Assembly (NCBI GenBank): GCA_016882285.1
Contig: VGQS01000010.1
Location: 1 to 35,762 of the forward strand
Source: Cyanobacteria bacterium K_DeepCast_35m_m2_155
GTDB taxonomy: Bacteria > Cyanobacteriota > Cyanobacteriia > PCC-6307 > Cyanobiaceae
Reading direction: 5' to 3'
Length of the DNA stretch: 35,762 bases
Made by a program: the position numbers and the translations under genes. Of this stretch, positions 15,424 through 24,435 are shown piece after piece (position 1 is the first letter of the stretch; each line of letters starts with the position of its first letter). Under the pieces are notes generated by a model. That model searched no databases and had not been told where the DNA came from. It was given only the letters and a program-made list of their open reading frames with translations.

Positions 15424-15738
15424 TCAGTCCTTCGAACCAACAAAGCCGGCGCTACCAGCCAGAGCCGGCTCCACTTCGCGGTGGGGGCGGGCGATGATGT
15501 GGGCGGCGACGAGGCCATCACCAACGCGCTCGCAAGCGTCAGCACCGGCACGCACAGCGGCGTTCACAGCACCGGTTTCGCCACGCACCATGACGGTGAC
15601 GTAGCCGCCGCCGACGAATTCGCGGGCGATGAGGCGCACTTCGGCAGCCTTGGTCATGGCGTCCGCCGCTTCAATCGCGGGAACCAGACCGCGGGTCTCG
15701 ATCATGCCGAGGGCGATGCCCATGGTTTCGTTTGCCAT
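15424..15738 (-). CDS. csoS1A: Major carboxysome shell protein CsoS1A (BMC-H hexamer)
   Basis: This 104-aa BMC-H protein forms the hexamers that make up most of the shell facets. The whole domain is visible: MGIALGMIETRGLVPAIEAADAMTKAAEVRLIAREFVGGGYVTVMVRGETGAVNAAVRAGADACERVGDGLVAAHIIARPH. The pore-loop region (FVGGG) is standard for CsoS1. The track begins at 15783, but the ATG at 15738 (MANETMG) has a perfect ribosome site (AAGGAG, 7 nt upstream), so it is used. It is the first gene after a roughly 207-nt intergenic region holding the promoter and dyad described separately, and it heads the Rubisco/carboxysome part of the operon. Confidence 0.97.
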   Translation of the reverse strand: MANETMGIALGMIETRGLVPAIEAADAMTKAAEVRLIAREFVGGGYVTVMVRGETGAVNAAVRAGADACERVGDGLVAAHIIARPHREVEPALAGSAGFVGSKD

Positions 15739-15846
15739 TACCTGCTCCTTGAGGAGGGGGGTGGAATGTTCGCCAATCACCATGGTCTGTGGCGAAACCC
15801 TCCGTCAAGGGATTTGGGGCACTGTGACGATCACCGTTTCCAGTGC

Positions 15847-15871
15847 CACTGATAAGCGCGACTGATCAGTG
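15847..15871. promoter_or_regulatory. LysR-type dyad operator candidate upstream of csoS1A
   Basis: CACTGAT-N11-ATCAGTG is a perfect 7-bp inverted repeat whose inner bases give the T-N11-A pattern typical of LysR-type regulators (CbbR/CmpR/NdhR class). Its right half also contains the 10-bp palindrome ACTGATCAGT (15861-15870). A second, wider dyad, GGCACTG (15818-15824) with CAGTGCC (15841-15847), lies next to it on the csoS1A side. The element sits at about +1 to +20 of the predicted csoS1A promoter, so binding there would most simply repress. Confidence 0.5.
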
Positions 15872-15872
15872 C

Positions 15873-15901
15873 ATTACAAAACGTTAGGGAACACTTGGCA
15901 A
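15873..15901 (-). promoter_or_regulatory. Predicted sigma-70 type promoter for csoS1A and the carboxysome operon
   Basis: On the minus strand TTGCCA (15896-15901) and TGTAAT (15873-15878) are separated by exactly 17 nt, close to consensus for the principal sigma factor. The predicted start is near 15866, giving a leader of about 128 nt before csoS1A. It would lie between sbtB and csoS1A, so the carboxysome genes can be transcribed independently of sbtAB. Confidence 0.5.
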
Positions 15902-15945
15902 TCAAGGCGCCGCAATGGCTCTGGCGGTGTCGACTGCTGCAGTCT

Positions 15946-16236
15946 TCACAGCGGATTCGTCTCTGACACGAAGCCGACCCCGCCGTAGTAATCGAGCAGT
16001 GGGTTGATCGCCGCGCGAATCGCCTCCAGTTCATCGCGCTGGCAGAACACGATGACGTGGGCGTTGGCACCGAAGCCACTGAACTCCATGCCTTCGGAGA
16101 CCTGCCCGGCATGCCCGCGGCCGGTCACATGACGCAGCACCGAATAGCCCGGTGCGCCCGCCTTGAGCAGGGCCTCACAGAGGCGATCAAGCTCGCGTTC
16201 ACTGACGATCAGATCGAGACGTTTCATTGGGTCCAT
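15946..16236 (-). CDS. sbtB: PII-like regulator SbtB of the SbtA bicarbonate transporter
   Basis: This 96-aa protein has the PII ferredoxin-like fold: MKRLDLIVSERELDRLCEALLKAGAPGYSVLRHVTGRGHAG (strand-helix-strand entering the T-loop), then GANAHVIVFCQRDELEAIRAAINPLLDYYGGVGFVSE. SbtB trimers bind adenine nucleotides (cAMP, AMP, ADP, ATP) and block SbtA. The gene begins 5 nt after the sbtA stop (ATG 16236 MDPMKRL; ATG 16227 is an alternative). The track's longer ORF is an artefact running into sbtA. The C-terminus ends right after FVSETNPL, so the Cys-bounded C-terminal redox loop described for Synechocystis SbtB is absent here. Confidence 0.9.
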   Translation of the reverse strand: MDPMKRLDLIVSERELDRLCEALLKAGAPGYSVLRHVTGRGHAGQVSEGMEFSGFGANAHVIVFCQRDELEAIRAAINPLLDYYGGVGFVSETNPL

Positions 16237-24326: not shown

Positions 24327-24385
24327 ACGAAAGGGTTTGGGCGCGTTTCGCCCCAACATTCAACGAGAAGAGCAAATCACCCTGA

Positions 24386-24435
24386 TCAGAACCACTTATC
24401 AAATCCCAGAAGAGTCGCTCTGCCAGTGGTTCTGA
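24386..24435. repeat. Perfect 11-bp inverted repeat with structured loop
   Basis: TCAGAACCACT (24386-24396) and AGTGGTTCTGA (24425-24435) are perfect complements. The 28-nt loop contains a smaller AGAG-TCG-CTCT hairpin. No T-run follows on either strand, so it is not a normal terminator. It is a candidate RNA structure or a widely spaced operator. Confidence 0.6.

Follow-up and report, generated by a model that had tools for sequence, protein, structure and literature searches.

A conserved RbcR-type operator core, predicted to activate the alpha-carboxysome operon, upstream of csoS1 in alpha-cyanobacteria

Introduction

LysR-type regulators usually act through a pair of sites, a recognition site and an activation site, and the motif of the proteobacterial Rubisco-operon activator CbbR has the form TNA-N7/8-TNA. 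For cyanobacteria, a 2026 review (PMC13249358) gives the RbcR consensus, after Bolay et al. 2022, as ATTA(G/A)-N5-(C/T)TAAT, that of the repressor NdhR as ATAG-N8-CTAT and that of CmpR, a low-carbon activator, as TTA-N7/8-TAA. According to the same review, RbcR is an activator when bound at about -90 and a repressor when bound about 10 nt before the start. Synechocystis genes that it activates at low carbon include rbcLXS, ccmK2K1LMN and sbtA (PMC12014562, PMC13249358).

The alpha-carboxysome operon was gained from proteobacteria, and in one proteobacterial lineage, of the cbbR-cso type, cbbR is divergent from the operon and adjacent to it (PMC1904183). For MED4, the LysR-type regulator on record is RbcR (PMC6778093), and the available literature goes no further than describing RbcR as "believed" to control Rubisco in Prochlorococcus. 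Here, we analysed the csoS1 upstream region of a cyanobacterial genome, contained in a window of 35,762 nucleotides (the whole stretch of DNA examined), and compared it with related genomes and with these described operators.

Results

The palindrome lies upstream of csoS1 and its outer arms are particular to one genome

The window belongs to a metagenome-assembled genome (MAG; 83% complete, 1.74 Mb), most closely related to genomes named Cyanobium and freshwater Synechococcus. On the minus strand, sbtA and sbtB are followed by a 207-nt gap and then by csoS1, cbbL, cbbS, csoS2 and csoSCA (Table 1), with Pfam matches to BMC, CsoS2_M, CsoSCA and RuBisCO_large at the carboxysome operon, so that Rubisco and carbon-concentrating genes lie downstream of the dyad, as expected of an RbcR site. 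Translation of csoS1 has its conserved start (MANETMGIALG) at 15738, preceded by AAGGAG at 15750-15745; the start of the 119-aa open reading frame listed for this gene lies too far upstream of it and was rejected. The same cyanobacterial sbtA-sbtB-csoS1 arrangement was also observed in a sequence titled "MAG: Bifidobacterium breve" (CALPNT020000185.1), which is a mislabelled or contaminated bin.

Table 1. Features of the csoS1 upstream region and flanking genes (window positions)
Feature	Position	Strand	Evidence or remark
sbtA, precedes sbtB	17234-16242	-	Pfam Sbt_1
sbtB (P-II-like), upstream of csoS1	15946..16230	-	Pfam P-II
TTGCCA-N17-TGTAAT hexamers, promoter of the earlier note	15873..15901	-	TTGCCA 15901-15896, TGTAAT 15878-15873; unconserved
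CGTTTTGT block just upstream of the core	15876..15883	-	Conserved in the freshwater group; information content mostly 1.2-1.85 bits (47 freshwater sequences)
Palindrome CACTGAT-N11-ATCAGTG, CACTGATCAGTCGCGCTTATCAGTG	15847..15871	-	Outer CAC/GTG arms particular to this genome; perfect arms in 1/83 relatives
RbcR-type operator core ATCAG-TCGCG-CTTAT, putative recognition site	15852..15866	-	Conservation and RbcR consensus form; centre 15859, predicted at about -88
ACnGTGATnG element, candidate activation half-site	15828..15837	-	Alignment columns; putative role
TTGACG, -35 element of the predicted csoS1 promoter	15803..15808	-	TTGACG in 49/49 sbtB-csoS1 gaps
CATGGT, -10-like element, 18 nt from the -35 element	15779..15784	-	xAxxxT in 72/72 relatives
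Predicted transcription start, head of conserved leader GCGAACATTCC	15770..15773	-	Placed by the -10-like element
csoS1 (carboxysome shell BMC protein)	15424..15738	-	Pfam BMC and sequence; first gene of csoS1-cbbL-cbbS-csoS2-csoSCA

An earlier note on this DNA had described a perfect interrupted palindrome of T-N11-A form in the gap, together with four CACTG/CAGTG half-sites. The palindrome is present, reading CACTGATCAGTCGCGCTTATCAGTG from 15871 to 15847, and its exact 25-mer form occurs once in the 1.74-Mb genome; nine perfect 7-N11-7 inverted repeats fall within the window, however, so that such a palindrome is by chance unremarkable. All four CACTG/CAGTG copies were also found (15871-15867, 15851-15847, 15845-15841 and 15824-15820; four in 52 nt), but the outer CACTG copies vary among relatives and CACTG/CAGTG was rejected as the recognised half-site; one copy (15845-15841) is an arm of the candidate second element described below (15845-15832). 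The T-N11-A dyad, the general form of a LysR-type operator, runs from T15865 to A15853, and both positions are at 100% in 79 aligned relatives.

Across 83 distinct csoS1 upstream regions, complementarity of the outer arm pairs was close to the frequency expected from column composition, and perfect 7-bp arms were confined to this genome, which led us to reject the exact arms as a functional unit. The earlier note had itself proposed conservation of the dyad in close relatives as its check; by that footprint the inner core stood (72/74 regions, see below) and the outer arms did not (1/83 perfect).

The inner core is conserved at a fixed distance from a predicted promoter

Conservation was measured in two unbiased sets: 50 distinct sbtB-csoS1 gaps, found by protein neighbourhood with the motif not used, and 24 further csoS1 upstream regions, found via the CsoS1 protein in genomes mostly missing the strict pattern. 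A core of the form ATnAG-N5-CTnAT shares its centre (15859) with the 25-bp palindrome, and ATnA(G/A)-N5-(C/T)TnAT was kept in 49/50 of the gaps and 23/24 of the further regions (72/74), from freshwater Cyanobium to Prochlorococcus. In the same 72 regions the architecture was complete, with the core followed after 42-44 nt by TTGAC(G/T), then N18 and xAxxxT, and the distance from core to TTGAC was exactly 43 nt in 67 of them. Among the 83 distinct sequences, spacing was 43 nt in 79, 44 in two and 42 in two. The two exceptions among the 74 were L036, in which the gap is largely deleted, and L221, with a single-base change in the core. In L036 the sbtB-csoS1 gap measures about 30 nt and both the csoS1 start and the promoter are absent, probably through an assembly deletion.

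In a 79-row ungapped alignment (47 freshwater and 32 marine or other sequences), eight core letters were invariant; since the 32 were picked by pattern, this alignment is biased for the core and TTGACG, and the unbiased figures are those of the 74 regions chosen by protein. The columns between the conserved elements carried 0.03-0.6 bits in the same alignment, which argues that conservation of the elements is not merely recent ancestry. Pattern searches gave a similar picture, with CGTCAA-N32-60-core in 219/300 genomes of the family and the relaxed GTCAA-N40-47-core in 30/30 genomes searched, the latter with extra chance matches in A+T-rich genomes. The labels "Prochlorococcus" and "beta-cyanobacteria" among searched genomes were assigned from genome size, base composition, gene order and kinship.

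Thus, the part of the palindrome that evolution has kept is the inner core, not the outer arms. The nine 7-N11-7 repeats in the window and the unconserved outer arms are what a chance palindrome without function would give, but the near-universal inner core and its fixed spacing, in dozens of genera, leave that explanation with a negligible probability.

The conserved promoter places the predicted start downstream of the dyad

The -10 element took the forms CATGGT, CAAGGT, CAGGGT, CATTGT and others among 72 relatives, with columns 15783 and 15779 at 99%, and the leader columns 15772-15758 (GCGAACATTCCACCC) were near-invariant from Cyanobium to Prochlorococcus. TTGACT was seen in place of TTGACG as the -35 element in 22 of the 23 regions missing the strict pattern (L222-L244), a variant concentrated in Prochlorococcus-like genomes. 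From this conserved promoter, the first transcribed nucleotide of csoS1 is predicted at about 15771, which leaves a leader of 33 nt and puts the dyad centre at about -88; the predicted start is thus far from 15866, a distance that the earlier note had itself named as speaking against its model, and is not overlapped by the dyad. With C as its first base and G at positions 4-5, the -10 element is weak and the start uncertain; a weak -10 would need help and is consistent with an activated promoter. A search of the open literature retrieved no csoS1 transcription start, and a sigma-70 scan of 15700-16000 gave no promoter-like site that reached its threshold. Reported targeting of csoS1 by the sRNA Yfr10 in MED4 (PMC6778093) makes an RNA-level role for the leader GCGAACATTCCACCC possible.

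The earlier note had placed the promoter at the TTGCCA and TGTAAT hexamers and the start near 15866, with an NdhR/CcmR-like regulator bound at the dyad blocking initiation when carbon is plentiful and with the repeat able to fold as a hairpin at the 5' end of the mRNA. Both hexamers are present with their 17-nt spacer, as is the palindrome, and RbcR itself can repress from about 10 nt upstream of a start, according to the review (PMC13249358). At the homologous place, however, TTGCCA was found in 2/72 relatives, TGTAAT in 1/72 and TAnnnT in 1/72, and the sigma-70 scan did not match them either. The near-invariant promoter lies about 43 nt beyond the core, with the predicted start about 88 nt from the dyad centre, and the repeat would not be part of an mRNA starting at 15771. 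The operator therefore does not overlap the conserved promoter or the predicted start, and the hexamers that it adjoins are unconserved.

NdhR/CcmR (sll1594) does share with the regulator proposed here its membership of the LysR family and its role in carbon-concentrating control. Its consensus, in the form given by the review, differs from the core in spacing and in both halves, and ATAG-N8-CTAT is absent within the dyad. The LysR gene described in the next section is, moreover, not the NdhR orthologue. Taken with the position of the promoter, these results make repression of the NdhR/CcmR kind at a start near 15866 very improbable.

The detected LysR gene belongs to a cyanobacteria-wide orthologue group

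A single gene with a LysR substrate domain was found in the MAG (L002:988-1962, on contig C98); at 83% completeness, a further LysR may be absent from the assembly. Its orthologues, 65-79% identical, occur in nearly all Cyanobacteriia searched, the next LysR in the same genomes reaching at most 37%, and 55-66 of the 66 residues of the DNA-binding region are identical. The MAG protein scored 132.9 bits against structure 5y2v, which we take to be NdhR (the entry is named Rubisco operon transcriptional regulator), compared with 441-562 bits between orthologues. It is thus the cyanobacteria-wide orthologue, and an rbcR orthologue is encoded in this genome; we infer that it is RbcR in the experimental sense. 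Neither an NdhR orthologue nor a CmpR orthologue was found in the 83%-complete MAG, whose sole detected LysR falls in another orthologue group than NdhR.

Prochlorococcus genomes encode a single LysR, 76-78% identical to that of the MAG, whereas in some relatives within the genus LysR-type matches number 4-6, several being weak. These additional matches, the incompleteness of the MAG and the fact that T-N11-A is common to LysR motifs are the grounds for supposing that the site serves another regulator, for example a second LysR absent from the MAG or a response regulator, and that its likeness to RbcR sites is a coincidence. The single-LysR Prochlorococcus genomes nevertheless keep the same site at the same spacing, and the inverted ATnAG/CTnAT is LysR-like and agrees with RbcR in form and position; we regard such a coincidence as highly improbable.

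In beta-cyanobacteria with an orthologue, a relaxed motif was present upstream of rbcL at 17/29 loci; the 21 copies there compare with an expectation of 4.0 in mononucleotide shuffles, and none was found in gene bodies of equal length. The same motif preceded rbcR in only one of the orthologues examined, and autoregulation of RbcR through it was rejected.

Comparison of the core with described operators

The core agrees with the RbcR consensus, as reported in the review (PMC13249358), in every letter of A,T,_,A,G / C,T,_,A,T; only the third base of each half-site differs, the left half carrying C or A here and the right half T, where the Synechocystis consensus has T and A. Its centre, at about -88 from the predicted start, lies beside the RbcR rule of about -90 taken from the same source. 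The RbcR (Ycf30, sll0998) operators of Synechocystis PCC 6803 are thus the closest described likeness, with the ATnA(G/A)-N5-(C/T)TnAT form, a position near -90 (here relative to a predicted start), Rubisco or carboxysome genes as targets and an orthologous regulator. The present site, which is putative, differs from them in that its target is a laterally acquired form IA Rubisco/alpha-carboxysome operon and in that its promoter spacing is strictly fixed across the family.

Among the other candidates, CmpR operators have a spacing similar to that of the core, but the letters do not match, the core reading TCA-N7-TTA where the review gives TTA-N7/8-TAA. The TNA-N7/8-TNA form of proteobacterial CbbR at cbb/cso operons is compatible with TCA-N7-TTA. 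Unlike in the cbbR-cso type, the regulator gene here is away from the operon, on contig C98, and belongs to the RbcR lineage of cyanobacteria.

Neighbouring conserved elements

In the ACnGTGATnG element, alignment columns -25 T, -23 A and -22 T were at 100%, -29 A at 96% and -28 C at 90%. It is enclosed by a weak dyad, CAC(T)GGAAAC(G)GTG (15845-15832), whose centre lies about 20.5 bp, or two helical turns, further downstream than that of the core. A scan of dyad centres found this second element not to be symmetric across the family; marine Synechococcus sequences (L153-L158, e.g. TTCACTATGGACAGTGATC) have there a perfect CACT-N6-AGTG palindrome, CACTATGGACAGTG, also two helical turns downstream of the core, which would fit contact by a second dimer.

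Immediately upstream of the core, the CGTTTTGT block is possibly the site of another regulator; marine relatives have a AACAGTnGTTTAAAACAGTC-like sequence in its place.

Further core-like sequences were noted in the genome. A second ATCAG-N5-CTTAT in the window (24385-24399) lies between a sigma-70-family gene (minus strand, from 24280) and a Na+/H+ antiporter gene (plus strand, from 24680); it was set aside as a conserved operator, the DNA match to relatives covering the coding part only. The remaining ATnAG-N5-CTTAT sites (C1:29351, C1:37333 and C9:5274) were rejected, their context being without clear promoter architecture.

Discussion

Conservation, form and position together make it probable, in our judgement, that the dyad core is a site for RbcR (Ycf30/CbbR-like) and that RbcR activates the alpha-carboxysome/Rubisco operon from it at low inorganic carbon. 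Of the earlier proposal that a LysR-type operator controls carboxysome transcription, the T-N11-A operator itself survives as a prediction from conservation, while overlap with the start and repression of the NdhR/CcmR kind do not.

In the mechanism that we propose, an RbcR dimer would recognise ATCAG-N5-CTTAT (15852-15866), and a second dimer would probably contact the ACGGTGATCG element about 20.5 bp, or two helical turns, downstream. RbcR would then recruit RNA polymerase to TTGACG-N18-CATGGT (15808-15779), with its weak -10, and csoS1-cbbL-cbbS-csoS2-csoSCA would be transcribed from about 15771. Low inorganic carbon, sensed via Calvin-cycle metabolites, would in this way raise carboxysome and Rubisco expression. 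RbcR binding at the core, activation, the exact start and the metabolite signal are what we infer from these comparisons. Activation is expected because the core sits at about -88, where RbcR activates according to the review (about -90, PMC13249358).

The arrangement of sbtA, sbtB and csoS1 on one strand, with no predicted terminator between them, and the reported ability of RbcR to activate or repress according to where it binds (PMC13249358) would also suit a dual role, in which RbcR activates the downstream promoter and acts as a roadblock or switch on sbtAB read-through, balancing transporter and carboxysome. In marine Synechococcus and Prochlorococcus, however, sbtB is not immediately upstream of csoS1 and the architecture is identical; it thus did not evolve for read-through control, and we consider this dual role unlikely. 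Activation by RbcR of the downstream promoter remains the reading that we prefer.

The kind of site is known, whereas no RbcR operator at the alpha-carboxysome operon of alpha-cyanobacteria was found in the available literature. The regulatory sign given in the earlier note is accordingly revised in our prediction, to activation at low carbon from repression at high carbon. The footprint amounts to a base-precise prediction of operator, promoter, start and regulatory sign across the most abundant photosynthetic organisms.

The proteobacterial origin of the operon (PMC1904183), together with an RbcR-type site, would imply rewiring to the native regulator, and the finding thus suggests a laterally acquired operon wired to such a regulator. 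We lean, with appreciable reservation, towards the view that the alpha-carboxysome/Rubisco operon, a proteobacterial gain, was placed under the resident RbcR, and that one rigid promoter (core, 43 nt, TTGAC-N18-CAnnnT) was then kept family-wide; in single-LysR Prochlorococcus, oceanic carbon fixation would then have RbcR as its only LysR switch.
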